Shown here in pieces: positions 8,769 through 38,855 of a stretch of DNA of 64,000 nt. The stretch lies in contig JAQWRV010000003.1 in assembly GCA_029243545.1 (NCBI GenBank), positions 62,001 through 126,000 on the forward strand, read 5' to 3'. The translations under genes were made by a program, and so were the position numbers. A model generated the notes under the pieces. The model saw nothing but the letters and a program-made list of their open reading frames with translations, ran no database searches and was not told the DNA's origin. Numbering within the stretch: the first letter of the stretch is position 1; every line of letters begins with the position of its first letter. This DNA is from Rhodospirillaceae bacterium (lineage in GTDB: Bacteria > Pseudomonadota > Alphaproteobacteria > Rhodospirillales > Rhodospirillaceae).

Positions 8769-9545
8769 TTAGTTTTTTATTGACACGATATGTGCGTCTG
8801 TAAACGCACCTTCCGCCAACAGAAGGTGCAACGTGTCTTGTAAATCAAAATTAGTTGATCCCACGGCGACCAGCGCTGTTGCTTCACCTAATGCTAGCCC
8901 CGTAGTGATACTCCTAAGCCATTGATAAGCGGCTTCATTCAGAAGCCGCTGCACAACGGTCTGGTCCCGCCGCATGACGAGGCCGCACTCGGCGTGCCCA
9001 AAATCGATTCCCGGTATTACGTCGTGATCCGCCTGATTAACTGCCCAGATTTCGAATATTGGGAAGGCTGAGTCTATAAGCCTTAGGGCGGGGTGAAGTG
9101 AGAAGGATACCTGGCTCAGCATCTCTGGCGCGATCTCTGCCAATTGCGTTGGGTCCATGGGCGCACGATCTTCAGCGAAGTAGGCCTCGATGCGCGCCCA
9201 TTCCAAACGCGCGACATCTGCCAGGTAAGGCATCGATTTTGCAGGCGGAAACGCACCTAAGAATTTAGGTAAGTCATGGCCATAACGAAATAGGGTCGGT
9301 TGTGTTGGCGGATGGGCCTCGATAAAAACTTTCGCCATGGCAACGAAGAACCGATCGCCCACGATACGTGCAACAACCGGGAATGCGGCCTTTAAGACGT
9401 CCGTCAGACTCACGATTGTGTTGGTGTGATAGACGCCCAAGCGCCGCTCGGGCGTGCCACGTGCCGCTTGAACTCGCCCTAGTAACGCTGCTTTGTTGTT
9501 GCTTAGCGCAATGGCTGCAAAATCTTTTTGCAGATCATGCAACAT
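8769..9545 (-). CDS. bufC: DUF2063 protein, bufferin-biosynthesis partner BufC
   Basis: A 258-residue protein of the DUF2063 family, often labelled putative DNA-binding domain protein. The N-terminal helical part has LLGRVQAARGTPERRLGVYHTN (about 20-41), then LKAAFPVVARIVGDRFF, and FRYGHDLPKFL follows. In bufferin systems this protein pairs with the MNIO enzyme BufB and acts as its partner in recognising the precursor leader. It overlaps the end of bufB by 11 bp, which implies translational coupling in an operon read bufA-bufB-bufC. The DNA-binding label is historical; a RiPP-recognition role is the better inference here. Confidence 0.85.
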   Translation of the reverse strand: MLHDLQKDFAAIALSNNKAALLGRVQAARGTPERRLGVYHTNTIVSLTDVLKAAFPVVARIVGDRFFVAMAKVFIEAHPPTQPTLFRYGHDLPKFLGAFPPAKSMPYLADVARLEWARIEAYFAEDRAPMDPTQLAEIAPEMLSQVSFSLHPALRLIDSAFPIFEIWAVNQADHDVIPGIDFGHAECGLVMRRDQTVVQRLLNEAAYQWLRSITTGLALGEATALVAVGSTNFDLQDTLHLLLAEGAFTDAHIVSIKN

Positions 9546-10431
9546 CAGACGCTCTCAAATCTGTTCCCATGCGGCGCTGGGCCTGTTCAGCCTCTGCCAG
9601 CAGAACATCTAAGGCGGGAATGTCTGTGTCCCACTCTATCAATGTCGGGCGCGGCCCTATTATTTCCAGTGCCGCCTCATACACGGCCCAGACCGCTTCA
9701 GCGACAACATCACTGTGCGTGTCGATGAGGAGTTGTTCTTCTCCTTCGCCGTCAACCAAATGACCCGCGAGATGAATTTCATGAACGGCATCGCCTGGAA
9801 TATTCTCAATGTATTGATTCGTATTGAAGTCGTTGTTCTCGGCGCTGACATAAATATTGTTAACGTCGAGCAGTAAACCGCACCCTGTTCTCTCCACGAG
9901 CGCTGACAAGAATTCCCACTCCGGAATTACTGACTCAGCGAACGTCAAATAAGACGACGGATTTTCGACCAATAATTGACGGCCTAAGGTGGACTGAACG
10001 TGACCCACATTGCGCACCATGATTGCCAATACCTCTTCGGTGTAGGGCAACGGCAGTAGGTCGTTGACATAGACACCGTCGACGACGCTGAAAGACAAAT
10101 GTTCTGAAACCAAACCAGGTTCGATCCGGTTTACCAAGGTGCTCAAGGTTGAGAGGTGGTTTTCATCTATTCCCTCAGCGGATCCAAGTGAAAGCCCGAC
10201 CCCGTGACAACTCACTGGGTAATGGCTACGCACAGCATCAAGCTCTGCAAGGCGAGGCCCGCCGGGAGCAAAAAAGTTTTCGCTATGGATTTCGACCCAA
10301 GCTGTTTTGGGCGTCCCTGCTACAAAATCAGACATGTGGGGATGACGAAGCCCGACCCCCGCTTCTACGGGGATCGGGCTTAGCCTGTCAGAGCGAGTCG
10401 AAAGGTGGTTGTCGGGCGGGGGGGAGGTCAC
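9535..10431 (-). CDS. bufB: DUF692 multinuclear non-heme iron oxidase (MNIO), BufB
   Basis: A 298-residue TIM-barrel-type protein of the DUF692/MNIO family. Family metal ligands are visible in order: His in SCHGVGLSLG (about 74), Glu in VENPSSYL (about 131), Asp in LLDVNNIYV (about 162), His in EIHLAGH (about 191), IDTHSD (about 209), and Glu in LIEWDTDIP (about 242). MNIOs use a mixed-valence iron centre to modify Cys residues in precursor peptides; bufferin enzymes make copper-binding thiooxazole-type products. The start is a GTG, as no ATG precedes the conserved VGLRHPH block. It lies 30 bp downstream of the precursor gene bufA. Confidence 0.9.
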   Translation of the reverse strand: MTSPPPDNHLSTRSDRLSPIPVEAGVGLRHPHMSDFVAGTPKTAWVEIHSENFFAPGGPRLAELDAVRSHYPVSCHGVGLSLGSAEGIDENHLSTLSTLVNRIEPGLVSEHLSFSVVDGVYVNDLLPLPYTEEVLAIMVRNVGHVQSTLGRQLLVENPSSYLTFAESVIPEWEFLSALVERTGCGLLLDVNNIYVSAENNDFNTNQYIENIPGDAVHEIHLAGHLVDGEGEEQLLIDTHSDVVAEAVWAVYEAALEIIGPRPTLIEWDTDIPALDVLLAEAEQAQRRMGTDLRASDVA

Positions 10432-10461
10432 CTTCGACGCTCAATCAAAAGTTAGGTCGGC

Positions 10462-10767
10462 TCAGCCGGCCTTCATTTTTGCTTCTTCGTTAACGCCTTC
10501 GCCCGGCGCAAGATCGCCGCCCATTTGGACGCAGCTGCCTTCGCCAACCAGTTTCCATTCACCGCTATCAAAGTCGACGGTGGACTGACCGGCACATGAG
10601 TGAGTACCCGCCGCATTGGCGCAGGCATTCTCGCCGGCCTTAGAAACGCCGTAGCATTTTTCTTTACCTTGGGCAGATGCCGTTGAAGGAATGGTCATCG
10701 CGGCCAATGAAACCGCACCAGCGACAGCGGCGGCTAGGGAAAGTGTTGATACTTTAGTGTCTGACAT
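10462..10767 (-). CDS. bufA: DUF2282 bufferin precursor (BufA1-like copper-binding RiPP)
   Basis: A 101-residue secreted-type precursor. Residues 1-32 form a long Ala-rich signal peptide ending PSTASA before QGKEK. The mature part has four Cys, at residues 38, 49, 58 and 79, in the DUF2282 contexts KCYGVSKAGENAC, HSCAGQS and GSCV. These are the Cys sites modified by MNIO enzymes in bufferins, which bind copper in the periplasm. I chose the second ATG (MSDTKV) because GGAG lies 6 bases upstream of it, and that GGAG overlaps the earlier in-frame ATG at 10779. First gene of the bufABC operon. Confidence 0.9.
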   Translation of the reverse strand: MSDTKVSTLSLAAAVAGAVSLAAMTIPSTASAQGKEKCYGVSKAGENACANAAGTHSCAGQSTVDFDSGEWKLVGEGSCVQMGGDLAPGEGVNEEAKMKAG

Positions 10768-10820
10768 TGTGTTCTCCATCTATGTTGCCGCGGTTGGCGG
10801 ACAAAAAGGTATCTCCTATT

Positions 10821-12097: not shown

Positions 12098-12943
12098 TTA
12101 TTCCGCATCAAGAAATGCGATAACACGGACCGCTTTTTCGGCGAGATCTCCCGGCGTGCGCTCTCCCGGCAAGATCTCCTGAATTGAATCAGGCACCAAA
12201 GCGGCCGCATCAGCAACGCCAGCGCTTAGAGGGTCGGTTTCAGATGCCGCGCAAAAGGTGCGCTGAGTAATTAAAGGGAGACGTTCACGATCGGGGTGAC
12301 GAAAGGCGGCGCGGTAACCCTTGTGATAGGTCGTTAGGCCCTTCAGCACGTCAAGGACAATGGGTTGAATAGCCTCTGGCGATGGCATCGACGCACCGGG
12401 CTGACGGAACTCTGGTGTTCGGCGGAAGTACGGGAAATGAAGCACTTGATCGCGCACGAAATTCCACGCCCAGATGAGATGTTGTCCAAATTCATCCAGA
12501 TGTACCTCTGGCGCGTAGTTCTCCAGAAAATCTGCCTTGTCTTCTCCTGAAAACATACCGATACCATCAAAGACTAGGCGGCGCACGCGGTCAGGGTGCA
12601 AAATCGCCAGTTCGCAGGCGATGTGGGCACCGGTATGGCTGCCGTAAACATCACAGGTTTCTAGCTCAAGAGCATCCATCACTCTTACAACGCTTTCGGC
12701 ATAGTCCTCTGCATTGGGCACGTCTTGGGTGGGCGGAGGAGAATCGCCGAATCCGAGTGTGTCTGGTGCAATGACACGGCGGCTGGCACCAAGTTCGCCC
12801 ATCAGCGGGGCCAAATTGTTGGAGGCCGCCGGTGAGGCATGGATCATGTATAGAGGAAGGGCATTGGTGTCGGCCCCTGGCCCGCACGTTCTATAATGCA
12901 CCTGTCCTTCTGCGATGCGTACAAATGCGCGATCAATCTGCAT
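12098..12943 (-). CDS. Alpha/beta-hydrolase-fold protein with atypical nucleophile elbow
   Basis: A 281-residue alpha/beta-hydrolase. The oxyanion-hole strand YMIHASPAASNNL (about 32), PDTLGFGDSP (about 59) and the strand-5 elbow DVYGSHTGAHIACELA (about 97) are visible. The elbow reads G-S-H-T-G, so a His sits where the usual G-x-Ser-x-G nucleophile is expected. Related sequences with HTG elbows are annotated as hydrolases; whether they hydrolyse by the standard mechanism is uncertain. It lies just upstream of, and divergent from, the sphingolipid region. Substrate unknown. Confidence 0.75.
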   Translation of the reverse strand: MQIDRAFVRIAEGQVHYRTCGPGADTNALPLYMIHASPAASNNLAPLMGELGASRRVIAPDTLGFGDSPPPTQDVPNAEDYAESVVRVMDALELETCDVYGSHTGAHIACELAILHPDRVRRLVFDGIGMFSGEDKADFLENYAPEVHLDEFGQHLIWAWNFVRDQVLHFPYFRRTPEFRQPGASMPSPEAIQPIVLDVLKGLTTYHKGYRAAFRHPDRERLPLITQRTFCAASETDPLSAGVADAAALVPDSIQEILPGERTPGDLAEKAVRVIAFLDAE

Positions 12944-13308: not shown

Positions 13309-15060
13309 ATGTTCCAAGCTACTCCCACAGATAACGGGGCTCTTCCCAAACGTTTGGCTGATTTTTCCACGTTGCCGGAAGCGCTCGACTATGCTGCGCG
13401 CGGTGAGACCGGGTTCAATTTCTATACGGCCCGTGGCAAGCTGACGGCTGTCCTGCCATTCTCTGAACTCAGCGCACAGGCAAAAACCGCGGCACATCAC
13501 ATTCTCGGGAGCGGTGTCAATCCGGGCGACCGTGTTGCTCTGCTGGCTGAAACGGCCCCAGCTTTTTTAATCGCATTTTTCGCCTGCCAGTATGCCGGAG
13601 CCATCCCGGTGCCAATGCCGACCCCGGTCGCATTCGGCCGTCGCGACTCTTATGTGGGCCAAATTCGCAATCAGATCACGTCGTCAGATGCGGTAATGGT
13701 CATCGCGCCCTCTGACTTCCTGCCTTTCGTCAAGGAAGCGGCGGATCATCTCGATTTGCTGATGGTTGGTAATTTGGATGATTTAATAAGCCAGCCAACT
13801 AAACCTGCGTTGTCTCCAGGCGGCCCAAGCGACCTGTGTTACATCCAGTACAGTTCAGGTAGTACGCGGTTCCCTAAAGGAGTGGCGGTAACTCATACAA
13901 ATCTTATGGCGAACTGTGCGGCCATGAATAAAGCGGTCGGCAATGCGCCCGGTGAACGTGGCGTATCTTGGTTGCCGTTTTACCATGACATGGGCTTGGT
14001 CGGATTCATGATCGGCTGCCTCACGTCGCAAACGACTGTTGATTATCTCCCCACCGAAGAATTCGCCCGCCGTCCACTGACCTGGCTTCGCATTATCAGT
14101 GAGAACAGCGGAACAATGTCCTATAGCCCCAGCTTCGGCTATGAGCTCTGTGCCCGACGCTTTGGCTCTGCATCTGCAACGGCGCCTGATCTTGATTTGT
14201 CCAGTTGGCGTATCGCCGGCATCGGCGGCGAAATGATCAAACCCAAGGTAATGCAAGCCTTTGCGGAGGTGTTTACCCCCCATGGGTTTTCTGAGCCTGC
14301 GTTCAACGCGTCATATGGTCTGGCGGAATGTGTGGTGGGCGTTTGCTTCAGTGCGCCGGGTACGGGAATGATTCTCGATCACATTTCCAAGCAAGAACTC
14401 GGCGATAATCATATAGCCGTTCCGGTGGCAGATGACGAAACGGGTATTGGCCGCACCTTTGTCGCCTGTGGTTTAGTGATTGAAGGTCATACAGTCGAAA
14501 TAAGAGACGATGACAGTAAGGTCTTAGCCGACCGCGAGGTGGGTAAAGTCTTCGTCTCTGGCCCGAGCATCATGCAGGGCTATTATGGCGACCCAGACGC
14601 GACAGCCGAATGTATTATTGATGGTTGGCTGGACACTGGCGACCTTGGCTATTTCCTTGGCGACCAACTGGTTATTGTCGGCCGCGCCAAAGATATGATG
14701 ATCGTCAATGGCCGGAACTACTGGCCACAGGACATTGAGTGGACTGTCGAACATATGGACGGAATGCGCTCTGGAGATGCTGCAGCGTTTACTTTGGAAC
14801 GCGATGACGGCTCAGAACAGCCAACGATTCTCGTCCAATGCAGGCCATCCGACCCTGAGAGTCGTAATAAAATTTTGGCGAACGTGAGAGCCCGGGTGCA
14901 GGGTCAGGTGGGACTAGCGTGCGATGTTGTTCTCGTGCCCCCAAGGACGTTACCCAAAACATCATCGGGTAAACTGGCGCGCGGCAAGGCTAAAGCGGGT
15001 TTTCTTAGCGGTGAAATAGAACCGTTTCCTGCAAGCGCATGGCGACGGTTAGTTGAATAA
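13309..15060 (+). CDS. Fatty-acyl-AMP ligase/acyl-ACP synthetase of the sphingolipid cluster
   Basis: A 583-residue adenylate-forming enzyme of the FAAL type. Motifs are YIQYSSGSTRFPKGVAVTH (about 181-199), the FAAL-like SWLPFYHDMGLVGFMIG (about 221-237), YGLAECVVG, and the late GWLDTGDLGYF...VGRAKDMMIVNGRNYWPQDIE. FAAL-like enzymes load fatty acids onto an acyl carrier protein rather than CoA. In Caulobacter-type loci the equivalent acyl-ACP synthetase feeds serine palmitoyltransferase. Only 2 bp separate it from the following SDR gene, and the ACP and SPT genes come next, which supports that role. Probable first gene of the operon. Confidence 0.85.
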   Translation: MFQATPTDNGALPKRLADFSTLPEALDYAARGETGFNFYTARGKLTAVLPFSELSAQAKTAAHHILGSGVNPGDRVALLAETAPAFLIAFFACQYAGAIPVPMPTPVAFGRRDSYVGQIRNQITSSDAVMVIAPSDFLPFVKEAADHLDLLMVGNLDDLISQPTKPALSPGGPSDLCYIQYSSGSTRFPKGVAVTHTNLMANCAAMNKAVGNAPGERGVSWLPFYHDMGLVGFMIGCLTSQTTVDYLPTEEFARRPLTWLRIISENSGTMSYSPSFGYELCARRFGSASATAPDLDLSSWRIAGIGGEMIKPKVMQAFAEVFTPHGFSEPAFNASYGLAECVVGVCFSAPGTGMILDHISKQELGDNHIAVPVADDETGIGRTFVACGLVIEGHTVEIRDDDSKVLADREVGKVFVSGPSIMQGYYGDPDATAECIIDGWLDTGDLGYFLGDQLVIVGRAKDMMIVNGRNYWPQDIEWTVEHMDGMRSGDAAAFTLERDDGSEQPTILVQCRPSDPESRNKILANVRARVQGQVGLACDVVLVPPRTLPKTSSGKLARGKAKAGFLSGEIEPFPASAWRRLVE

Positions 15061-15062
15061 CC

Positions 15063-16013
15063 ATGGATGAGCGGGTAGCGCTAACAATCGCTGTCACGGG
15101 GGCCACAGGTTTTGTCGGTGAACACCTCACCCGTCGCTTACGCAGAGTGGGCCATGTCGTCCGTGCGCTAACGCGGCGTCGTAATAATGATGACTCGGAC
15201 CCAAAATTAATCTGGATTCAAGGTGACCTTAGTTCCGGGTCATCCTTAAAAGACTTGGTGTCAGGCGCCGATGTGGTGGTTCATGCGGCAGGGGCGATCA
15301 AAGCGCTCAGTCGTTCTGCATTCTTCAAGATTAATAAAGACGGAACACAATCCCTTGTTGAGGCAGCGCTTAACGCCAAAGTGCCGCGCTTCATTTTGGT
15401 GTCCTCTCTCGCCGCACGAGAGCCGTCTCTTTCTCCTTACGCGGCAAGCAAGCGAGCCGGTGAACTCGTGCTTGATAGGTTTAGGGATCGCATTGAGTCA
15501 GTAGTCCTGCGTCCGTCGGCCATATACGGACCAGGAGATCAGGAAACAGGGCGCCTGTTCCATATGGCCAACAACGGCTTTATTCTGGCTCCGGGCAGTC
15601 CGGCGGCGCGACTTTCACTTGTCCATGTGGGCGATGTTGTTACTGCGATACAGGCCTGCTGCGAGTTGGGTCAGCCCAGCCGCCCGCTTGAAATCGATGA
15701 TGGCGCGCCGGGCGGATACACGTGGCGAGAGCTGGCGGACGTCGCCGGTGGCGCGGTTAACCGGCCGCCAAAATTAATTTATCTGCCCCCTGTGATGGTC
15801 TGGCTGGCCGGCGCGGCAGGAACAGCGATTAGCCTCATTACACGAAAACCATCTATCTTAACTCTCGCAAAAGTACCAGAACTTTTGCACACTGACTGGC
15901 ACGCGCGTGGTTCGCGGCCTAACGGTTGGAAGCCTGCCTGGGCCTTGGGCACAGGCTTTAATGACGCAGTGGATTGGTATTCCTCACAAAATATTTTGAA
16001 ACGTTACTTTTAA
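15063..16013 (+). CDS. cerR: NAD-dependent epimerase/dehydratase-type SDR, probable ceramide reductase (CerR-like)
   Basis: A 316-residue extended SDR. It has the Rossmann motif VTGATGFVGEHL (about 12-23), ADVVVHAAG, a SSLAAREPSLSPYAASKRAGE active-site stretch with the YxxxK pair (about 123-136), and RPSAIYGPGD. In Caulobacter, CerR reduces the 3-keto group of the sphingoid base or ceramide and is encoded beside SPT. The same arrangement here, immediately after the acyl-ACP ligase and before ACP-SPT, makes this the likely function. Alternative: another sugar or sterol SDR. The reductase call rests mainly on context. Confidence 0.75.
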   Translation: MDERVALTIAVTGATGFVGEHLTRRLRRVGHVVRALTRRRNNDDSDPKLIWIQGDLSSGSSLKDLVSGADVVVHAAGAIKALSRSAFFKINKDGTQSLVEAALNAKVPRFILVSSLAAREPSLSPYAASKRAGELVLDRFRDRIESVVLRPSAIYGPGDQETGRLFHMANNGFILAPGSPAARLSLVHVGDVVTAIQACCELGQPSRPLEIDDGAPGGYTWRELADVAGGAVNRPPKLIYLPPVMVWLAGAAGTAISLITRKPSILTLAKVPELLHTDWHARGSRPNGWKPAWALGTGFNDAVDWYSSQNILKRYF

Positions 16014-16117
16014 AGTTACTTGTCACCTTTCTGTCATTCCCCCTAAGTGTACCCTGTAAAGTGGAGTGGGATTCGGGACTCAGGGCGATTCTGATCCCCA
16101 TTTGAAGGGTTAAATGC

Positions 16118-16390
16118 ATGTCAGCAGCACCTGGCAGTAGCGGGTCTTCTGATGCGCGTGCTGCGGTTTTGGAGGTCCTCGGACCGTTCAATAAGACCGC
16201 AGTCACTCTAGAAGACGGGACGCGATTTACCGAAGACCTGAATTTTGACTCGCTTCTTGTGATGGAGTTCATCGCAGCACTGGAAGACCGGTTGGATATT
16301 TCAGTGCCGCTTAATGTGCTCCCCGATATCGAGACCGTTGGCCAGTTGGTTGTGGCGGCGCAAGAGATCGTTAGGGAAGAGCATGGCTGA
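16118..16390 (+). CDS. Acyl carrier protein dedicated to sphingolipid synthesis
   Basis: A 90-residue acyl carrier protein. The phosphopantetheine site is the Ser of NFDSLLVMEF (about residue 46), followed by the acidic helix II and LPDIETVGQLV. Its stop overlaps the start of the serine palmitoyltransferase gene by 8 bp, so the two are translationally coupled. It probably carries the acyl chain from the acyl-AMP ligase to SPT, as the AcpR-type protein does in Caulobacter. It is distinct from the primary fatty-acid-synthesis ACP, which normally sits between fabG and fabF. Confidence 0.9.
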   Translation: MSAAPGSSGSSDARAAVLEVLGPFNKTAVTLEDGTRFTEDLNFDSLLVMEFIAALEDRLDISVPLNVLPDIETVGQLVVAAQEIVREEHG

Positions 16391-17615
16391 TCTGTTTGAT
16401 CGTTTTGAATCTCTGCGGGCACGCCGTGATGCGTTGGTCGGTGATGGTGGGCACGATCCGTTTCAAGTCCAGATGGACGAGGTGCTGTCTCAAACAGAGG
16501 CTATGATCAACGGCCGCAAGACCATTCTTGCTGGTACGAACAATTACCTTGGATTGACATTCGCTCCTGAAGCGCTGCAAGCGGCACATGATGCGCTTGA
16601 GGCTGCGGGCACCGGAACAACAGGGAGTCGTGTTGCTAATGGGACCTATGCGGGTCACAAAGCACTCGAAAACAGGCTGTGTTCATTCTTCGAAAAAGAA
16701 CAAGCCATCGTGTTCTCGACCGGGTACCTCGCTAACCTGAGTGTTCTGTCGACGCTTGTCGGCTCCGACGATTACATCCTCATGGATGCAGATTGTCATG
16801 CCAGCATCTACGATGGCGTGCGTATGGGTGACGCGCAGATTATCCGTTTTAAACACAACGATGCGGCAGATCTCGATAAACGTTTGGCGCGTTTGGCCAA
16901 GAAACCAGGCAATAAGCTGATCGTTATCGAAGGCGTTTATTCCATGCTTGGCGACAAGGCGCCGCTCTCCGATATCGTCGAAGTTAAAAACAAATATGAC
17001 GATGTGTATTTGCTGAGCGATGAAGCGCACTCCGTTGGTGTGCTCGGGCGTTATGGACGTGGTCTCCCTGAAGAAACCAATCTCGAAGATGATGTCGACT
17101 TTATAGTTGGAACGTTTTCAAAGAGTGTGGGGACAGTCGGTGGCTTCTGTGTCTCTAATCACCCGCAATTTGATCTCCTGCGGCTTGCCTGTCGTCCCTA
17201 CATCTTTACAGCCTCGCTTCCGCCCTCCGTGGTGGCTTCGGCACGCGTCTCTCTGGATCTGGTGGAGAAGGGGGGGGCCCTGCGCAAACGCCTCATGCGC
17301 AATGCCGAGCGTTTGCACTCCGGATTATCTGCGCTTGGATTTACTCTGGGTGGCGATGTGAGTCCCGTGGTCGCCGTCGTGGCGTCCGATGTCGAAGTTG
17401 GTGTAGCATTTTGGCGCGGGCTTATGGACGCCGGCATCTATGTTAATCTCGCTCTGCCGCCGGCAACACCACATAACTATACGCTGTTACGCTGTAGTTT
17501 GTGTGCCGCACATACGTCGGCCCAGGTTGACCGTATAGTCGAAATCTTTGCGGAAGTGGCGGCTGATCTTGACGTTCTGCCGCCTATTTCCAAAAAGAAG
17601 ACTGCCCTGGCGTAA
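16383..17615 (+). CDS. spt: Serine palmitoyltransferase (alpha-oxoamine synthase family)
   Basis: A 410-residue PLP enzyme condensing serine with an acyl thioester to give 3-ketosphinganine. Visible features are NNYLGLT, GSRVANGTY, FSTGYLANLSV, DADCHASIYDG, DEAHSVGVLG (PLP-ring Asp and His) and the PLP-Lys loop VGTFSKSVGTVGG (about 244). Alternative family members (AONS, KBL, ALAS) are possible on sequence alone, but the coupled ACP, acyl-AMP ligase, CerR-like SDR and ceramide synthase-like gene nearby favour SPT. The start is the ATG overlapping the ACP stop; a longer upstream reading merely traverses the ACP gene in another frame. Confidence 0.88.
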   Translation: MADLFDRFESLRARRDALVGDGGHDPFQVQMDEVLSQTEAMINGRKTILAGTNNYLGLTFAPEALQAAHDALEAAGTGTTGSRVANGTYAGHKALENRLCSFFEKEQAIVFSTGYLANLSVLSTLVGSDDYILMDADCHASIYDGVRMGDAQIIRFKHNDAADLDKRLARLAKKPGNKLIVIEGVYSMLGDKAPLSDIVEVKNKYDDVYLLSDEAHSVGVLGRYGRGLPEETNLEDDVDFIVGTFSKSVGTVGGFCVSNHPQFDLLRLACRPYIFTASLPPSVVASARVSLDLVEKGGALRKRLMRNAERLHSGLSALGFTLGGDVSPVVAVVASDVEVGVAFWRGLMDAGIYVNLALPPATPHNYTLLRCSLCAAHTSAQVDRIVEIFAEVAADLDVLPPISKKKTALA

Positions 17616-17621
17616 TCCAGA

Positions 17622-18530
17622 TTAGCGGTTGTGATCTTGTGACTGGCTAAACAGCAAGCGGAGCCCAGTCCACAAGGGATATGCGCGCTCGCGGTCGGTG
17701 AGTTCTATTTTCTCGCCGCGGTGCCGTTCCAACTTCCACACGGCATAATTCAGCCCTCCTTTGAAAGTGAAGGCGGCTTTAATGAGCCGTAAAACGTTGA
17801 GCAAGCGCCCCCATATACTGCGCAAGCGCCACACCCACTTGGCCATCGGCTTGGGAAAACGCGAACTAAAAGGGTCGGCGCCCATTTCCGCCAAGGCTGC
17901 CGTGCCGACAGCGTCAAACCGCTCTGGATTTGCGTCAATAAGTTCGTCTGCTTTGGTCGGTGGTTCTGGTCTTAGCTCTGCCTCATAGGTTGATCTTAAT
18001 GCTTTCACCCAAAGATCACGTGTTGAGAACGGGCCCGTCATGAGGGGAAGCGTTTTACTGATCAAACTGTTCACAGCGCGTGCCAGTGCTTCTTTTGTTG
18101 CGTCGCGGGCACGGTCATCCGACGCATAGACAATGGCTGCGGGTTGGGCAAATCGGGCCCAAATTGCCGACGCGAAGGTTGTGTTTGCTGTTCCACGCAC
18201 GAAAGCACCGAACGCCATTACGGCCACTTTTGCCCGGATGGTTCGGCCTTCGAAGTCGCACTCGTGGTAATATATATTGGGCGGAAGAACAGTGCCCATC
18301 GCGGCGCTAAGGGGATGCTTAAGTGATTGCTTAAGGCTGCCGACCAAAACGTACAGATCTAGCATCAAGTCTTCATCAGTTCCCATACGCAGGCAAGATC
18401 CATAAAACACGACGGCGCGCACACTAGATCCATAAACTGTACGCACATGATCAACCATTGCCGCAGCAGCAGGAAACGGTTGCTCCCGGCTTTCCGTTTC
18501 GATCAATTCATTCAAAGTGGAATTTACCAT
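17622..18530 (-). CDS. Nucleotidyltransferase-fold protein of the sphingolipid region
   Basis: A 302-residue protein whose first 100 residues carry a nucleotidyltransferase-like core: VVFYGSCLRMGTDEDLMLDLYVLVG (about 39-63), with the Gly-Ser turn and an Asp-x-x-x-Asp pair. The C-terminal half is helical and basic (KWVWRLRSIWGRLLNVLRLIKAA), suitable for membrane contact. It overlaps the upstream lipid kinase gene by 7 bp and ends 6 bp from the convergent SPT stop. In Caulobacter, genes beside SPT build the ceramide phosphoglycerate head group, so this may be a head-group transferase. The assignment is by context, not by a recognised family name. Confidence 0.6.
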   Translation of the reverse strand: MVNSTLNELIETESREQPFPAAAAMVDHVRTVYGSSVRAVVFYGSCLRMGTDEDLMLDLYVLVGSLKQSLKHPLSAAMGTVLPPNIYYHECDFEGRTIRAKVAVMAFGAFVRGTANTTFASAIWARFAQPAAIVYASDDRARDATKEALARAVNSLISKTLPLMTGPFSTRDLWVKALRSTYEAELRPEPPTKADELIDANPERFDAVGTAALAEMGADPFSSRFPKPMAKWVWRLRSIWGRLLNVLRLIKAAFTFKGGLNYAVWKLERHRGEKIELTDRERAYPLWTGLRLLFSQSQDHNR

Positions 18531-19627
18531 CGGATGAACCGCATGTTTTGATGGCTGCTCAATGTGAGCGGCTGGTCGGGCCGCATGGTGTATAGTTCGC
18601 CATCCAATGTGTATTGGCCTGACGATTTTAGCGTTACCGAATTGGTCCGCTGTACGGTCCGTGCTTGGCTCGGTGAGATTCGCCGGCGCACCAAACTCGG
18701 AATAGTTGATAGCACAGGCCCGGGTCCGGCGCGGAGGCTTATGTAATGCAAAGGGCCCTTGCCGTTCACCGGTGCCGGCTGAACGCCTAACAGCATGCGG
18801 TCCATAGTGGTTACAAGAACAACAAAGAATCGGCCTTCTTCACCAATATCTGATCCATCGAACCGGACTGACAATGCGTCGGTATTTTGTCCTGCAACAA
18901 GGGCGCGCCATAAAAGTATAAAAACAGCTGCGCTGTGAGAAATGACATTGGGGAGGCCCAAAGGGTAGACGGCACGGCGGCAATAGAGAATGCCTTCCAC
19001 CACGTCTGCGCCGCCAAAAAAAGCACCGTGGCGAGAGGGGGTGGCTTCGCCGTCGTCAAGAGTGATGATTGCCCGGGAGTGAATGTTGCCATCCAATGAG
19101 CCGTCTTTGTGTTTGTGGATGAGATGATCCAACGCGGTCTGCCGGTTGCCGTTTAGACTCCATGCTTGTGCCGTCATATTTGTCTTACCCGACGGTAATA
19201 ACGCCAAAGCAGGAAGGGTTTTGTAAGGGCTGTCATTGAGAAGCCCAGAGAAAACCAGCCCGGCAGTACCATCACCGCCATCTATGGCCAGTGTGCCTAT
19301 GCCAGCATCAGCGCATTTTGAAAGAATGCCTGGTATGTCATCGATTCGGTCAAAGGCGAACCGTCGCACCCAAGAATGGCCTGAGACGATGCTGTTGAGC
19401 CAATCCGCGTCTTCCCTGTTCCGGGTGCTGAGGTGATTGCTCAGTATGGCAATAGGCGCTGGGGTCAATGAGGGTCTGCCAAGTTGAAAGAGGGTCCTGA
19501 AACACGTGCCGATAAAGCACCCGAAACAATAATAGCTGCGACGGCCGCACCATACATAATGTTGCAAAATCTTTGATTTGACGACCTTGCTTCTGAGTAC
19601 CAATGTGAGATAGCTCAAAAACCGCAA
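18524..19627 (-). CDS. DAG-kinase-family lipid kinase, probable ceramide kinase
   Basis: A 367-residue protein with the diacylglycerol/sphingosine kinase catalytic loop GTLAIDGGDGTAGLVFSGL (about 116-134). The following motif is LLPSGKTNMTAQAWSL rather than the more common GTxND form. In Caulobacter a kinase of this family, CpgB, phosphorylates ceramide on the way to ceramide phosphoglycerate; its position beside SPT suggests the same here. The first 50 residues are Cys- and Tyr-rich and poorly kinase-like, so the true start may lie closer to PAPIAILSNHLST. Operon with the downstream nucleotidyltransferase-fold gene; divergent from the LptF-like gene (93 bp). Confidence 0.75.
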   Translation of the reverse strand: MRFLSYLTLVLRSKVVKSKILQHYVWCGRRSYYCFGCFIGTCFRTLFQLGRPSLTPAPIAILSNHLSTRNREDADWLNSIVSGHSWVRRFAFDRIDDIPGILSKCADAGIGTLAIDGGDGTAGLVFSGLLNDSPYKTLPALALLPSGKTNMTAQAWSLNGNRQTALDHLIHKHKDGSLDGNIHSRAIITLDDGEATPSRHGAFFGGADVVEGILYCRRAVYPLGLPNVISHSAAVFILLWRALVAGQNTDALSVRFDGSDIGEEGRFFVVLVTTMDRMLLGVQPAPVNGKGPLHYISLRAGPGPVLSTIPSLVRRRISPSQARTVQRTNSVTLKSSGQYTLDGELYTMRPDQPLTLSSHQNMRFIRW

Positions 19628-19720
19628 GGAATACCGGCCAATTTCAGGCTGGCGCGAAATTAAGGCATAGACTCAGGGATTCAACAGCACGGACGCCGCA
19701 AGCAGGTCACGCCGATACAG

Positions 19721-20962
19721 ATGTTTAAATCACTCGACATTTACCTCTTACGTCAGATTATGCCGACTTTGCTGGTGACGCTTATGGTCACTGCCATCAT
19801 TTTGGTGTTGGAGCGCATGCTGCGTTTGCTGGACTTTGCTGTGGGCAATGGCGTTTCGACGCTCGTTGTCTTCCAGATGCTGTTCAATCTAATTCCCCAC
19901 TACATAAGCCTGGCGTTGCCGGCGGCGTTGTTTTTGGGAGTTTTGCTGGCCTTTCGTAAATTGTCTTCCCAGTCCGAACTTGACGCTATTCATTCGACCG
20001 GGATTGGCCTTAGCCGCTTTATTCGCTCAGCTGTATTGCTCGGCCTGCTGCTGATGATGGTGAATCTCATACTACTTGGTTACGCCCAGCCCTTCAGCCG
20101 TTATGCGTATCGGGCTTTGTTGTTCAATGTCACCAGCGGTGTATTGGAATCCGGCATCGGCGAAGGCGTATTTATGGACCTTCCCAATGGCTATACCCTT
20201 CGCGTAGAGCAGTCGCGCGGTGCTGGCCGTAAGCTTTATGGTGTCTTCGCCCATCAGCAAAAAGAAGACGGCACGATTGTGACGTTAACTGCCAAACGCG
20301 GCGAGTTGGTGGCAGGTGGAGCTGATCGGGCAACTAGTCTTAGGCTTTATGAAGGCAATCGGTCTGAGTGGTCACCGGGTGTAACCTCGGCCAGTACGGT
20401 CCACTTTGACGCCTTTGACTGGCCTCTGAATCTGGAAGACCTCATACGGTTCCGTTTGCGTGGCGGCGATGAACGTGAACTGACGCTGAGCGAGCTCGTC
20501 CGCGGCTATGTGAAAAACATGGCCGACGAGCAAGGCGGGTCACCTACCGGGGCGGCGAGCCCGGAAGCCCCTCCTGAAGATCGCGTCACGCCTGCGGCCA
20601 TTGCTGCGGAGTTGCACGGCAGAATTGTGTTCTCCTTATCTATTCTCTTTTTACCCATGCTGGCCGCACCGCTTGGCATTATGACTCATCGGGCGAGCAA
20701 ATCCTTTGGCCTTGTATTTGGGCTCCTTGTTCTCGTCGTCTACCATAAGATTCTGGAATTCAGTGAAGCCTACGCCACGGTTGGGGGGGTGCCCGCCGGT
20801 CCGGCGCTTTGGCTTCCGCTTGCTTTCTTTATAATGGCGACGTCTTATTTGTTTTTGAAAACGGAGACCATCGCCGGAGCAACACCCATGCAGCGTTTGG
20901 AAGATCGGTGGGGTGGCATGACCAGTGCCGTAGCCAAATTAATATCCGGATTCCGCCGCTAA
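19721..20962 (+). CDS. LptF-like (YjgP/YjgQ) permease
   Basis: A 413-residue inner-membrane protein of the YjgP/YjgQ family. Helices lie at about 13-33, 60-80 and 103-123, followed by a periplasmic beta-rich domain (about 130-270) and three C-terminal helices. The start MFKSLDIYLLRQIMPTLLV is typical of LptF. LptF and LptG form the transmembrane core of the LPS exporter with LptB. This pair is divergent from the ceramide-kinase-like gene and upstream of a lipid hydroxylase, not beside lptD or other LPS genes, so a sphingolipid-dedicated exporter is possible. It could equally be the cell's only LptF. Confidence 0.85.
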   Translation: MFKSLDIYLLRQIMPTLLVTLMVTAIILVLERMLRLLDFAVGNGVSTLVVFQMLFNLIPHYISLALPAALFLGVLLAFRKLSSQSELDAIHSTGIGLSRFIRSAVLLGLLLMMVNLILLGYAQPFSRYAYRALLFNVTSGVLESGIGEGVFMDLPNGYTLRVEQSRGAGRKLYGVFAHQQKEDGTIVTLTAKRGELVAGGADRATSLRLYEGNRSEWSPGVTSASTVHFDAFDWPLNLEDLIRFRLRGGDERELTLSELVRGYVKNMADEQGGSPTGAASPEAPPEDRVTPAAIAAELHGRIVFSLSILFLPMLAAPLGIMTHRASKSFGLVFGLLVLVVYHKILEFSEAYATVGGVPAGPALWLPLAFFIMATSYLFLKTETIAGATPMQRLEDRWGGMTSAVAKLISGFRR

Positions 20963-20966
20963 TCTT

Positions 20967-22031
20967 ATGACCCTATCCTGGTACCTAACCAAAGCGTATC
21001 TGACACGCTTCTTTGCCTTGCTTGTTGGGCTTGTTGTATTTTTGCAAATGCTGGATTTACTCGCGAATGCCGACGCAGTGCTGGACGGAGGTGGCGCCCC
21101 TGTTGGTTCTCTTGCGCGCTATATCATATATCGGGTCCCGTCGATTGTCGAAACCGTCGCGCCGTTGGCGGGTCTGCTCGGTGCTCTAACGACTCTGGTC
21201 ATTTTGGCACGTAACAGTGAGATCATTGCCATGCGTGCGGCCGGCCGCTCGGTGCTGAGTCTGATTGGTGGCTTGGTTGTGGTGGGATTGATGTTGGCCG
21301 TCGTTCTTTTTTTCTTCTCTGATCGCATCGTGGTGCGTTTTAACGCACAGCTGGAAGATTGGAAAAGCGCTGGCTACAAACCAGGTGGAGAAATCATCGA
21401 CGGTAGTGAGGCTTGGGTCATAGAGGGAGAGACCATCGTCCGCGTTGGTCATGTGTTGCGCAACGGTGCTGTCCTCAATGACATCCGCGTCTTCCATCAA
21501 GCAGAATCCAACGCTGTCGCTGATATCGTCAATATTCGATTAGCGATCTGGGAAGACGCCGCCTGGAACTTATTTGAATTCGAGCGGGTCGGCGGGGATG
21601 GCGGCGCTGATGACCCGCCAGCCTGGGTTACGAAACTTAGACCTGACGATTTTAACAAACTGGCAAATCCGCCCAGCGAGTTGACCTTTGATGAGCTGGA
21701 GCACTACGTCCGGGAACTCGCCCTTGGCACGCGTCCCGAATACTACTACGACACCTGGCTGCAGCGGAAATTGGCCGGGCCAGTGGTGTTGGCGTTAATG
21801 CCTTTACTGGCCGCGATCGCTGCCTTTGCCCACCACCGCCAGGGCAGCGCGGTTATGGTGGTGGTCTACGGCATTACCCTAGGTTTCGTGTTCATCCTCA
21901 CAGACAATATGCTGTTGGCCATGGGGCAGTTCGGCGCTTTGCCGCCGATTGTTGCTGCTTGGCTGCCCTTAGCGCTGTTTGCCACCATCGGCCTCTGGAT
22001 TGTGCTAAAATTGGAAAACCAGGGCGCATAA
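20967..22031 (+). CDS. LptG-like (YjgP/YjgQ) permease
   Basis: A 354-residue partner of the preceding gene, 4 bp downstream. N-terminal helices include FFALLVGLVVFLQMLDLL, and the conserved NSEIIAMRAAGRSVLSLIG coupling segment (about 81-99) corresponds to the cytoplasmic helix that contacts LptB in LPS exporters. A periplasmic jellyroll-like middle and three C-terminal helices follow. No ATPase gene accompanies the pair, so it would have to borrow LptB or a similar ATPase. See the LptF-like entry for the sphingolipid hypothesis. Confidence 0.85.
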   Translation: MTLSWYLTKAYLTRFFALLVGLVVFLQMLDLLANADAVLDGGGAPVGSLARYIIYRVPSIVETVAPLAGLLGALTTLVILARNSEIIAMRAAGRSVLSLIGGLVVVGLMLAVVLFFFSDRIVVRFNAQLEDWKSAGYKPGGEIIDGSEAWVIEGETIVRVGHVLRNGAVLNDIRVFHQAESNAVADIVNIRLAIWEDAAWNLFEFERVGGDGGADDPPAWVTKLRPDDFNKLANPPSELTFDELEHYVRELALGTRPEYYYDTWLQRKLAGPVVLALMPLLAAIAAFAHHRQGSAVMVVVYGITLGFVFILTDNMLLAMGQFGALPPIVAAWLPLALFATIGLWIVLKLENQGA

Positions 22032-22138
22032 ATAAAATCCATTGATCACGTTGCAATCAGCTGGAATCGCGCTACATCAACGCTTCATCCGGCCCATCGT
22101 TCGTCATAGGCTGGGCGTATACACGAACGGGAACTGTT

Positions 22139-22951
22139 ATGGTCTTCAAAATCGGCTTTTGGTCTGACCGGGATTATCACCTTGATCGTATGAATCTGGG
22201 CGATCTGGCTGCGGCGTACCTACAGTATTACGCTATAGCGGCTTATCTGGCCTTAGCGGCAGTTTCCGCCGCGTTCACCGGCTGGGCTTTTCTCAATGGG
22301 ATGGCGACGTTTATCGGACTGGCGGCCTCTGTCGTGGCGACGATGCTGATGTATCCGCTGGTGTGGTACACGCTTCATCGTTGGATTTTGCATTCACGCT
22401 GGATGTGGAAACTCAAGATGACCGCACCTGTATGGAAACGTATTCATTACGATCATCACTCTGATCCCAATAGTCTCAAAGTGCTGTTTGGCGCGTTATA
22501 TACTACTCTGCCCATTGTAGCCTTGGCGACGGCTCCGGTTGGGTTTGCTCTGGCCGGTTGGCCTGGAGCTACGGCGGCCTTGTGCATGGGAGTGCTGCAG
22601 ACGTGTTTCTATGAATTCATTCATTGCATTCAGCATCTTGGATACGCGCCAAAATGGGGCTGGGTCAAACGGATGAAGAGACTCCATATGGCGCACCACT
22701 TCCACAACGAGAATGGAAACTACGGCATTACGAATTATCTATGGGACCGCCTGTTTGGAACTCTTTACGGTCAAGTCAAGGACCGGCCGCGATCTGCCAC
22801 GGTTTTCAACCTCGGCTATGACGAAGAAGTGGCGAAGCAGTATCCCTATGTGGCTGCGATGACTCCCAACTGGCCACATACGGCCAACCCGGTGCATCGC
22901 CAACGTGAGTATGCACAGCCTTCTGAGTCCGAAGCGCACTCGTCGCTGTAA
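22139..22951 (+). CDS. Membrane di-iron fatty-acid/sphingolipid hydroxylase (sterol desaturase family)
   Basis: A 270-residue protein with four to five hydrophobic helices and the His clusters of the fatty-acid hydroxylase family: LHRWILH (about 80-86), HYDHHSD (about 102-108), HCIQH (about 162-166) and HMAHHFHNENGNYG (about 183-196). These ligate a di-iron centre that inserts oxygen into lipid chains. Between the LptFG-like pair and the ceramide-synthase-like gene, the likely substrate is the acyl chain or long-chain base of the cell's sphingolipid. Position of hydroxylation cannot be read from sequence. Confidence 0.85.
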   Translation: MVFKIGFWSDRDYHLDRMNLGDLAAAYLQYYAIAAYLALAAVSAAFTGWAFLNGMATFIGLAASVVATMLMYPLVWYTLHRWILHSRWMWKLKMTAPVWKRIHYDHHSDPNSLKVLFGALYTTLPIVALATAPVGFALAGWPGATAALCMGVLQTCFYEFIHCIQHLGYAPKWGWVKRMKRLHMAHHFHNENGNYGITNYLWDRLFGTLYGQVKDRPRSATVFNLGYDEEVAKQYPYVAAMTPNWPHTANPVHRQREYAQPSESEAHSSL

Positions 22952-22972
22952 TCCAATAGCGCCCTAGTTCAT

Positions 22973-24127
22973 ATGTCAGTTTCGGAAATTACTGTTCTGC
23001 CAGTAGAGGGCCGCGCCGGCATGCGCTTGTTCCTGGACGTGCCTGCCCTATGTCAGGGGGGCGACCCGGTTTGGGTTCCGCCATTTGAGATGATGGTCCG
23101 CGGCCAGCTTAGCCCAAAAAAGAATTCTTGGTTCTCCCATGGCGAAGCAGAACTTTTTGTTGCGATGAGAGACGGCGCGCCGGTGGGGCGCATCTCAGCG
23201 CAAATAGACCACACCCATTTGGAATTGCGCAAAGATACAACGGGTTTCTTTGGTTTTTTCGAATGCATTGATGAGCAGCCGGTCGCAAATGCTTTGTTTC
23301 AGGCTGCACAAGAGTGGCTGACACGGCAGGGTATGACCCGGGTACGCGGGCCATTTAGCCTCAATATAAATGACGAATCGGGTCTGCTCGTTGAAGGCTT
23401 TGAAAGTCCGCCACGCATGATGATGGGGCATGCGCCCAAGTACTATCAGACTCTTGTCGAGAATGCCGGTTTTGAAGGAGTACGCGACTTGCTGGCGTAT
23501 CTTACGCCCATGGATACCGCGGTGCCCCTTAAGCATATCAAACTGTTGCAGCGTTCCATTGACCACAATCCGGAACTAGAGTTCCGCCATCTTGACCCTA
23601 ATAACTATGACCGGGACATTCGCATCCTGGTTGATTTGTTCAACGGTGCTTGGGCCGAAAACTGGGGATATATTCCGTTGACGGAAGAAGACGCCCGTCA
23701 CATGGCGAAGGAATTTAAGCACATAATAATACCGGAATTGGTTTGGTTCGCCTTCTATGAAGGTGAACCTGCTGCGATGGCAGTCGCATTGCCGGACTTC
23801 AATGAAATGATAGCCGATCTTGGTGGCCGTCCCTCCCTCGGAGGCTGGTTCAAACTCGGCTGTCGTCTCCTCACACGACGCTCGTGGTCATCCCGGACCC
23901 GTGTCCCATTAATGGGCGTGGCACCCCGTTTCAAGAATAAGTCCTTGGGGTCTGTTTTGGGGTTGATGGTTATAGGGTCCATCCGTCGTGAGTCTTTGAA
24001 ACTCAACCTGCCGATCTGTGAAATGAGCTGGGTCTTGGATGACAACGGGCCCACACGCCATTCCATCGAAACCCTTGGCGGGCGCATCTACAAAACCTAC
24101 CGGGTCTACGAAAAGGCTATCTCGTAA
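22973..24127 (+). CDS. GNAT-like acyltransferase, probable bacterial ceramide synthase (bCerS)
   Basis: A 384-residue GNAT-fold protein of the family once mislabelled dATP pyrophosphohydrolase. Conserved stretches are DPVWVPPFEMMVR (about 33-45), VGRISAQIDHTH, GFFGFFECI, VRGPFSLNINDESGLLVEGF (about 124-143), MMMGHAPKYYQ, and late MGVAPRFKNKSLGS. In Caulobacter a protein of this family N-acylates the sphingoid base to form ceramide. It starts 22 bp after the hydroxylase gene and completes the ceramide pathway encoded by the neighbouring SPT, ACP, CerR-like and acyl-ACP ligase genes. Confidence 0.8.
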   Translation: MSVSEITVLPVEGRAGMRLFLDVPALCQGGDPVWVPPFEMMVRGQLSPKKNSWFSHGEAELFVAMRDGAPVGRISAQIDHTHLELRKDTTGFFGFFECIDEQPVANALFQAAQEWLTRQGMTRVRGPFSLNINDESGLLVEGFESPPRMMMGHAPKYYQTLVENAGFEGVRDLLAYLTPMDTAVPLKHIKLLQRSIDHNPELEFRHLDPNNYDRDIRILVDLFNGAWAENWGYIPLTEEDARHMAKEFKHIIIPELVWFAFYEGEPAAMAVALPDFNEMIADLGGRPSLGGWFKLGCRLLTRRSWSSRTRVPLMGVAPRFKNKSLGSVLGLMVIGSIRRESLKLNLPICEMSWVLDDNGPTRHSIETLGGRIYKTYRVYEKAIS

Positions 24128-24155
24128 CCAGGTTTGTCTCACGCTACAGTATCTC

Positions 24156-24959
24156 ATGGATAAAACCCCTGGCGTGTACCGCACCTATATCGACGGCCTG
24201 TTTGGTCAGATGCACCTGCGCATGACCAAGCCAGAGACTGTGACGGCCCGGCCTCTGCTGTGTATCCATATTAGCCCGCTCTCGGGCATTGTTTTTGAAA
24301 AGTTCCTCAGTGAAATCGGTACGGACCGTATCGCTGTGGCGTCTGATACACCCGGTTATGGTATGTCCGATGGGCCGGATTGCGCGCCCAATATTGAAAC
24401 CTATGCCGCTGCCATCGGTCGGGTGCTGGACGCGCTGAACTTCGAGACCGCCGACCTCATAGGTTACGGCACGGGTTCAAAAATCGCTTTTCAAATAGCG
24501 TTGGATAACCCGGATCGCATTAAACACGTCACCCTGATCTCCGCACCCGATTACACCGAAGACGAGGTGGCGCATATGCGGTCCACCCTCGGCCGGGTTA
24601 TTGAGCCGGTCGAAGATGGCTCTCACCTTTTGGCTAACTGGAAACAAGTTACGGGCTTTCCCAATAACGAACTGCGCATGCGTGTTTTTCCTGAGCACAT
24701 CCGGTCCGGTGCTCGCAAACCTTGGGGGCCGCGTGCAGCGTTTGCGTTCCGCTACCGGGATCGTCTCGACGAACTCAAACCACCGCTTATGGTTCTCAAT
24801 ATCAATAATGAGATCACTAAACCCACGCGTCGCCTCAGCGAAGTCTTGAAAAATGGACGCTATGTCGAGCGCCTGGATTGGCGTCACGGATTTTTAGAAG
24901 ACTCACCCGGAGAAGTTGCCGCATTGGTGCGTGAGTTTGTTGACCGAGATCTGTCTTAG
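24156..24959 (+). CDS. Alpha/beta-hydrolase-fold protein lacking the usual nucleophile Ser
   Basis: A 267-residue alpha/beta-hydrolase with the oxyanion strand LLCIHISPLSGIVFEK, SDTPGYGMSDGP and a catalytic-His region at WRHGFLED near the C-terminus. The nucleophile elbow reads IGYGTGSKIAFQIAL, so Gly occupies the place of Ser in G-x-Ser-x-G. It resembles the hydrolase at 12098 in the following T-G. I start at MDKTPG because longer readings overlap the ceramide synthase gene in another frame. It follows that gene by 28 bp and may belong to its operon. Function unknown. Confidence 0.75.
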   Translation: MDKTPGVYRTYIDGLFGQMHLRMTKPETVTARPLLCIHISPLSGIVFEKFLSEIGTDRIAVASDTPGYGMSDGPDCAPNIETYAAAIGRVLDALNFETADLIGYGTGSKIAFQIALDNPDRIKHVTLISAPDYTEDEVAHMRSTLGRVIEPVEDGSHLLANWKQVTGFPNNELRMRVFPEHIRSGARKPWGPRAAFAFRYRDRLDELKPPLMVLNINNEITKPTRRLSEVLKNGRYVERLDWRHGFLEDSPGEVAALVREFVDRDLS

Positions 24960-38483: not shown

Positions 38484-38573
38484 GGGTCAGCATATCTTCT
38501 TTTCCACATCATCAGCTAGCTTGGCCCGGCTCGCTTGACCTGCCTTTAGCCCAGCAGTAGTTATGGGCTTAGT

Positions 38574-38755
38574 GAAGGTGTGTTCGTTCTCGCTAATTTG
38601 AGAACGAACCAAGAGGGAATCCGGTGTGAAACCGGAACTGCCCCCGCAACTGTAAGCGGTGAGTCCTCCACCAAACGTACCACTGGAGCATTTGTTCTGG
38701 GAAGGTCGGTGGATCGACAGAGACCCGTCAGTCAGGAGACCTGCCGTCACAGCGT
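38574..38755 (+). ncRNA. Cobalamin (AdoCbl) riboswitch
   Basis: The core is plain: AAGAGGGAATCCGGTGTGAA, ACCGGAACTGCCCCCGCAAC, TGTAAGCGGTGAGTC, then CCACTGGAGC, GGGAAGGTCGGTGG and CCCGTCAGTCAGGAGACCTGCC. An extra 9-bp hairpin TTCGTTCTC/GAGAACGAA precedes the core at 38583-38608. It lies directly upstream of btuB, so B12 binding should shut down the uptake operon. Confidence 0.95.
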
Positions 38756-38855
38756 CACCTATCCATGGGGCGGGGTGTTCCTGTGGAGCGGCAATCCGTA
38801 GCGGTGACGCGCACGAGGTGGTGCCGTCAAAGGTGATGCGGGTTCGGACTCTCTT

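Follow-up and report, generated by a model that had tools for sequence, protein, structure and literature searches.

The DNA analysed here, a 64,000-nucleotide stretch from a Rhodospirillaceae bacterium that we call the window, carries ten genes at 13309-24127 that together make up a Caulobacter-type sphingolipid locus. On the evidence of sequence and modelled structures, we assign a probability of about 0.85 to the reading that this locus would direct the Caulobacter-type synthesis, modification, and export of ceramide. The gene kit itself is known from Caulobacter; what the window adds is an Scs7-like hydroxylase beside the ceramide synthase bCerS and a predicted Tam41-like fold for CpgC, a nucleotidyltransferase (NTase).

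We infer all of the reactions, the transport step, and the final product as follows. A fatty acyl-AMP ligase would load a fatty acid onto a dedicated acyl carrier protein (ACP), and serine palmitoyltransferase (SPT) would condense the ACP-bound fatty acid with serine. N-acylation by bCerS and reduction by CerR, steps assigned from counterparts and disputed as to their order in Caulobacter, would yield (dihydro)ceramide. The Scs7-like enzyme encoded next to bCerS would then hydroxylate the ceramide, C2 of the N-acyl chain being the likeliest position. A CpgB-type kinase would convert ceramide to ceramide-1-phosphate, the Tam41-like CpgC-type NTase would join ceramide-1-phosphate and CTP to form CDP-ceramide, and a further enzyme would convert CDP-ceramide to the final phosphosphingolipid. 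Finally, LptF2 and LptG2, two partner permeases that differ from the canonical Lpt pair, would extract the finished lipid towards the outer membrane beside lipopolysaccharide (LPS).

Multiple comparisons establish from sequence that an SPT of the proteobacterial type is present. The protein exceeds the cut-off of the SPT model NF047599, the BioF and Kbl models of NCBIfam stay below their own cut-offs, the best matches in the PDB are the SPTs 2x8u/2jg2, and the motif GTFSKS surrounds the presumed pyridoxal-phosphate lysine. In a 25-row tree, it falls within a group of 19 rows that also holds SPTs from Caulobacter and elsewhere (support 98/97), apart from E. coli BioF and Kbl and from one further superfamily member of the same genome; long-branch warnings apply outside the 19-row group. 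By the same kind of evidence, a dedicated ACP and an acyl-ACP synthetase are encoded beside SPT, and counterparts of CerR, a short-chain dehydrogenase/reductase (SDR) with YxxxK and TGATGFVG motifs, and of bCerS are present. A first-pass annotation of this DNA had called the acyl-AMP ligase, SDR, ACP, SPT, kinase, and hydroxylase genes, and each was found where it had been placed and matched the expected Pfam or NCBIfam family. Its GNAT label for the last gene fared less well, as the protein scores 19.3 bits in the Pfam GNAT family (cut-off 20.7) and a PDB search with it returned nothing useful; the bCerS identity proposed with that label was borne out through the Caulobacter-type loci. That annotation had named two outcomes that would argue against a ceramide pathway, namely an oxoamine synthase grouping with AONS/KBL and a GNAT protein lacking bCerS affinity. 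Instead, NF047599, the PDB, and the tree assign the synthase to SPT, and the acyltransferase is the counterpart of bCerS in Caulobacter loci. Of 61 relatives, 14 have a bCerS match; among 289 genomes of the class, 48 match at E ≤ 0.001, 45 of them below 1e-80; the bCerS of one class member, G089, is 73-85% identical to Dongia bCerS.

In Caulobacter crescentus, according to excerpts of PMC11324152 (the other papers are likewise cited from excerpts), CC_1165-CC_1162 and CC_1154 are required for ceramide, CC_1160 and CC_1161 are required for ceramide phosphoglycerate (CPG), and CPG2 requires CC_1159, CC_1153, and CC_1152, with a contribution from CC_1158. The window shares with this CPG/CPG2 locus (CC_1168-CC_1152) the five ceramide genes, counterparts of CpgB and CpgC, LptF2, and LptG2. 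CpgB (CC_1160) is a ceramide kinase and CpgD (CC_1152) makes CDP-glycerate (PMC12275187); a CpgB-type kinase gene and a CC_1161-type NTase gene, the pair by which the CPG pathway (CpgB, CpgC) is recognized, lie adjacent in the window. The C. crescentus gene list comes from PMC11324152, and order and strand were compared using four Caulobacter-type loci, three named Caulobacter (L128, L163, L164) and one from an uncultured Caulobacterales (L167). These four share with the window the gene order and strands SPT (+), NTase (-), ceramide kinase CerK (-), LptF2 (+), LptG2 (+), and bCerS (+). The proteins of the window are 55-56% identical to theirs for SPT, 39-41% for bCerS, about 41% for the SDR, 32-35% for the NTase, 31-32% for LptF2, and 27-30% for CerK, the last found in three of the four.

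The window differs from these loci in having a PF04116 hydroxylase gene between LptG2 and bCerS, for which there is no match in the four stretches, nor in three Phenylobacterium loci (L144, L175, L182) with the same order. The Caulobacter-type loci have extra open reading frames (ORFs) between CerK and LptF2; in L164, one ORF after the kinase is a CpgA-like CDP-alcohol phosphotransferase (PF01066), whereas a CpgA-like query found no match in the genome of the window. Dongia, Niveispirillum, and Tateyamaria loci (L105, L131, L146) resemble the window in having SPT, NTase, CerK, LptF2, LptG2, and a hydroxylase directly before bCerS, although L131 and L146 have PF01066 (CpgA-like) and PF12804 (CC_1153-like) genes nearby.

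The first-pass annotation described an NTase-fold protein. That protein has no Pfam or NCBIfam match of its own, but its predicted fold sets it beside Tam41. Single-sequence searches with the window protein, or with nine family members one by one, turned up no relevant match. A 9-row profile had the generic nucleotidyltransferase domain 9xbd as its sole match (E 0.0045). With a 20-row profile, 9xbd again ranked top (E 0.0079), followed by Tam41 (E 0.018), and PF09139, the Pfam family of Tam41, matched one of the 20 rows, at 1e-6, and not the window protein. A structure was also predicted, from 30 rows (the window and named loci; pLDDT 90.9). Its first five Foldseek matches are all Tam41 (E 7e-9 to 6e-8), and VIA aligns the model to Tam41 7ecd over 224 residues with a Z score of 18.9 and a root-mean-square deviation of 3.2. 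Z scores for Tam41 structures are 18.9, 16.3, and 15.9, compared to 8.4 for the best other fold, with aminoglycoside nucleotidyltransferases next in the ranking. The NTase thus resembles Tam41 in predicted fold over 209-224 residues and differs from it in that it is 14-17% identical, adjoins a ceramide kinase, and has ceramide-1-phosphate as its predicted substrate. Because Tam41 is a CDP-diacylglycerol synthase, the predicted shared fold makes formation of CDP-ceramide and pyrophosphate from ceramide-1-phosphate and CTP the likely CpgC step. The fold result therefore supports a remark in PMC11324152, where a CDP-diacylglycerol synthase InterPro domain was noted for CC_1161 and an activated ceramide was contemplated; the excerpted part of PMC12275187 terms the CpgC mechanism unidentified. 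Among the open-licence papers listed by a literature search, none contains the term CDP-ceramide, and none connects Tam41 to ceramide as far as titles and the starts of abstracts show.

The only clear phmmer match of the hydroxylase in the PDB is yeast Scs7 (4zr0, E 4e-8), with aligned histidine clusters, and ten histidines are invariant in alignments of 12 and 27 rows. For a structure predicted from 23 rows (pLDDT 81.9), Scs7 is again the only clear Foldseek match (E 8e-4 to 2e-3, TM-score ~0.54), and VIA gives a Z score of 12.1. Likeness to the yeast ceramide fatty acid hydroxylase thus lies in histidine motifs and fold; the differences are that identity is 18-23%, only the hydroxylase part of Scs7 is matched, and the window protein is bacterial and encoded in a ceramide locus. 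Two further PF04116 proteins occur in the genome, one of which was searched and matched no PDB chain up to E 10, and the Caulobacter vibrioides genome also has a PF04116 match. Hydroxylation of the amide-linked acyl residue of Caulobacter sphingolipids is assigned to a different protein, CC_0202 (PMC11324152). Among the open-licence papers listed by literature searches, as judged from titles and the starts of abstracts, we found none describing a bacterial fatty acid hydroxylase gene of the window type among ceramide genes, and the excerpt of PMC9386255 contains nothing on a hydroxylase gene.

The distribution of the hydroxylase ties it to bCerS. We scored 128 bCerS loci, comprising 12 from the family, 36 from the class, and 80 named loci, in sets that may overlap; the named loci are the best 80 of 586, found from a Dongia-like first sequence, and are a biased sample. 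At thresholds of 250 bits for the hydroxylase and 150 bits for bCerS, the hydroxylase is present in 58 loci (11/12 family, 24/36 class, 23/80 named) and in 56 of them it is the gene immediately before bCerS, in the same orientation, a position judged from trimmed starts in L074, L080, L089, L090, L124, and L179. The exceptions are L023, where it follows SPT, and L093, where it lies elsewhere. A bCerS fragment of 139 bits (L033) and hydroxylase matches of 44-58 bits (L068, L134, L138) were left out of the counts. Some loci, such as L109, L110, L121, L125, and L133, have a hydroxylase but lack both kinase and NTase within the stretch, so the presence of the hydroxylase tracks bCerS and not the headgroup genes. 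Among the 61 relatives, close hydroxylase copies occur only with bCerS or CpgC. Thirteen have strong hydroxylase matches (E < 1e-100), twelve of them with bCerS and the thirteenth, G022, with an NTase beside the hydroxylase; the NTase occurs in twelve, of which eleven have bCerS and the other is again G022. Two genomes have bCerS but no strong match to the hydroxylase: G012, whose 36% identical bCerS-like gene is the only one of the gene set on its stretch, and G033, a 66% complete genome with a bCerS fragment at a contig end.

The LptF2 and LptG2 genes, which the first-pass annotation had not mentioned, extend the locus to transport. Both proteins share with the LptF/LptG of LPS export their Pfam family and NCBIfam models scoring above cut-off; they differ in forming clades of their own. 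LptF2 clusters in a clade of 17 rows that includes LptF2 from the Caulobacter loci and no canonical LptF (support 97/98). For LptG2 the clade likewise has 17 rows, among them LptG2 from the Caulobacter loci but no canonical LptG (support 98/97). Both clades are separate from E. coli LptF/LptG and from the four other LptF/LptG proteins of the genome. Both permeases are high-scoring in 47 of the 80 named loci. LptC2/F2/G2 are proposed transporters in Caulobacter (PMC11324152); according to the excerpt of PMC11087976, a flippase or transporter had yet to be identified. An LPS-free host is not supported, as the genome contains one copy of LpxC, and because LpxC is present, the sphingolipid probably accompanies LPS.

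We also considered whether a second LptD serves as a translocon reserved for the sphingolipid, and rejected this idea. The genome of the window (G000) encodes six LptF/LptG proteins and two LptD proteins and is the only one of 61 genomes with two LptD. An LptF-LptG-LptD-SurA set lies on contig C21 (L218 9062-14685), an LptF beside LptD on contig C1 (L216 7315-10661), and an LptG on contig C27 (L217 9584-10774). Tetranucleotide correlation with the window is 0.81-0.85 for the C21 stretch and 0.91-0.96 for the C1, C26, and C27 stretches. Because this composition deviates and the contamination estimate of the genome is 3.74%, contamination is the simpler reading, and C21 is probably a contaminant contig.

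The locus had also been called complete. This description holds for the five ceramide genes and not for the headgroup genes, of which we found CpgB and CpgC counterparts. One Tateyamaria query for CpgA (CC_1159), whose Caulobacter gene is responsible for adding the second unit of the headgroup, had no match at E ≤ 0.001 in G000; the same query matched in 6 of 13 genomes, at about 1e-50 in G016 and G025, at 1e-19 in one, and at 4e-5 to 7e-4 in three. A CC_1153-like gene (PF12804) on contig C26, a 34% match beside an MmgE/PrpD gene, may be a paralog, and we dropped it as proof of CPG2 for that reason. Since this one CpgA query drew no match, we do not predict CPG2. The headgroup counterparts present are CpgB and CpgC, so the end product may be a phosphosphingolipid other than Caulobacter CPG2 and is probably simpler than or different from it. 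The earlier prediction of ceramide-based, probably phosphorylated and hydroxylated sphingolipids is supported, with phosphorylation and hydroxylation predicted from sequence and fold.

How firmly each step can be read depends on the alternatives to it. The oxoamine synthase could be an AONS/KBL-like enzyme in a locus unrelated to ceramide, considering the superfamily that AONS/KBL and SPT have in common, the matches below cut-off to TIGR00858 and the KBL model, and a score of 529 bits, under the cut-off of 670, for the alphaproteobacterial SPT model NF047603. The NF047599 score, the SPT clade, the best PDB match, and the partner genes speak for SPT, however, and the NCBIfam cut-offs, PDB matches, and tree rule out the AONS/KBL reading to the point that we give it almost no weight. 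A less remote proposal is that the locus yields only neutral or simply phosphorylated ceramide and that the NTase attaches a nucleotidyl or glycerate group directly. Attachment of glycerate to ceramide-1-phosphate was earlier proposed for CC_1161 (PMC11324152), the single CpgA query was without a match here, aminoglycoside nucleotidyltransferases come next in the fold ranking, and the generic domain scores slightly above Tam41 by sequence. By fold, Tam41 nonetheless stands far above the rest; it uses CTP and a phospholipid. Direct attachment is described in PMC11324152 as not especially favourable in energetic terms. We consider direct attachment unlikely and CDP-ceramide formation the better account of the NTase. 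For the hydroxylase, the alternative is that it acts on the long-chain base, where hydroxylation at C4 would yield phytoceramide, or on a free fatty acid that bCerS uses afterwards. PF04116 enzymes act on several substrates, and the gene, which adjoins the acyltransferase in most loci, adjoins SPT in L023; against this, Scs7, the only clear match by sequence and by Foldseek, is an N-acyl 2-hydroxylase. The Caulobacter hydroxyl introduced through CC_0202 also sits on the amide-linked acyl residue (PMC11324152). These alternative substrates are improbable, if slightly less so than direct attachment by the NTase, and C2 of the ceramide N-acyl chain remains the most likely predicted site.

Several observations weigh against the proposed ceramide synthesis, modification, and export pathway. 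No enzyme that uses CDP-ceramide was identified, both NTase profiles favour 9xbd over Tam41, which one of them finds at E 0.018 and the other misses, and the kinase is only 27-30% identical to Caulobacter-type kinases. bCerS occurs without the NTase in G012, G018, and the 66% complete G033; in the G018 locus (L030), hydroxylase, LptF2, and LptG2 are present while kinase and NTase are missing from the stretch, and the whole G018 genome has no NTase match. A locus from Caulobacter sp. S45 (L162) has a different layout with no NTase or kinase matches, and in L126, also named Caulobacter, bCerS stands alone at the stretch edge. CerR is reported to be periplasmic in Caulobacter (PMC11087976), a location that is not obvious from the N-terminus here. 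The hydroxylase model is moderate, with a Z score below the caution line of about 13 for helical proteins, and since Scs7 is the sole clear match, fold and metal site are fixed better than substrate or carbon. Finally, the Lpt tree carries long-branch warnings, the only Lpt permeases near seven of the named loci (L106, L109, L110, L114, L125, L136, L178) are low-scoring, the low-scoring pair of L125 groups with E. coli LptF/LptG, and L028 and L031 have LptG2 but no LptF2 in the stretch.

The genes of the window form three strand groups: ligase-SDR-ACP-SPT (+), kinase-NTase (-), and LptF2-LptG2-hydroxylase-bCerS (+). The 8-bp overlap of ACP and SPT that had been noted previously is exact, with the SPT start codon ATG at 16383 and the ACP stop codon TGA at 16388-16390; the NTase and kinase genes overlap by 7 bp. 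The longest ORF of the kinase opens with TTG, and alignment with relatives suggests a start near 19468. This arrangement is not chance, because the gene set is largely kept in order across 13 family stretches, several of which end early at contig ends, although some genes are lost and the order changes at least once. The ligase lies upstream of SDR, ACP, and SPT in 7 of the 13 stretches, several of which stop short.

Genes of the sphingolipid locus in the window
Product	Position	Strand	Support
Fatty acyl-AMP ligase (AasR-type acyl-ACP synthetase)	13309..15060	+	NF006624/PRK09192, 768 bits (cut-off 600)
SDR, CerR counterpart (3-keto-ceramide / 3-ketosphinganine reductase)	15063..16013	+	PF01370, NAD-dependent epimerase-type
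ACP, AcpR type, DSL phosphopantetheine site	16118..16390	+	PF00550 (PP-binding); motif FDSL
SPT	16383..17615	+	NF047599, 623 bits (cut-off 500)
CpgC-type NTase, predicted CTP:ceramide-1-phosphate cytidylyltransferase	17622..18530	-	Tam41-like predicted fold
CpgB-type lipid (ceramide) kinase	18524..19627	-	PF00781 (DAGK_cat); GGDGT motif
LptF2, permease subunit of second, sphingolipid-locus Lpt set	19721..20962	+	PF03739, TIGR04407
LptG2, partner permease	20967..22031	+	PF03739, TIGR04408
Di-iron fatty acid hydroxylase, Scs7/FA2H-like, predicted ceramide (N-acyl 2-) hydroxylase	22139..22951	+	PF04116
bCerS-type GNAT N-acyltransferase (ceramide synthase)	22973..24127	+	Identity and position versus Caulobacter-type loci

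Alpha/beta hydrolase genes flank the locus on both sides (12098-12943, minus strand; 24039-24959, plus strand), the upstream one being syntenic in L021, L022, L023, L028, and L031. Further upstream, on the minus strand at 8769-10779, a row of genes encodes a DUF2282 small protein, an MbnB/TglH/ChrH-type enzyme (PF05114, 346 bits) of the kind that acts on ribosomally synthesized and post-translationally modified peptides (RiPPs), and a DUF2063 protein; we take this row to resemble a bufferin-type RiPP operon. A cobalamin riboswitch (128.5 bits) lies at 38559-38762 on the plus strand. Elsewhere, bCerS loci from Burkholderiales (Rhizobacter, Variovorax, and others) and Panacagrimonas (L111, L116, L117, L122, L143) have two consecutive acyl-AMP ligase matches.

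The locus offers candidates for two steps in the making of bacterial sphingolipids, namely the role of CpgC and the hydroxylating protein in loci with a PF04116 gene. We propose tentatively, at somewhat less than even odds for the whole, that the CpgC family acts as CTP:ceramide-1-phosphate cytidylyltransferase, that the gene just before bCerS in many alphaproteobacteria encodes a dedicated bacterial ceramide hydroxylase of Scs7 type replacing the DesA-type CC_0202 of Caulobacter, and that LptF2/LptG2 export the hydroxylated lipid beside LPS. If this is true, bacteria would make CDP-ceramide as an activated lipid, mirroring CDP-diacylglycerol. It is also a further member of a second LptF/LptG lineage encoded alongside ceramide genes, which opens a dedicated export route to testing. 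Because phosphosphingolipids are needed in Caulobacter for polymyxin sensitivity and deoxycholate resistance (PMC11324152), the same phenotypes may hold in these bacteria.

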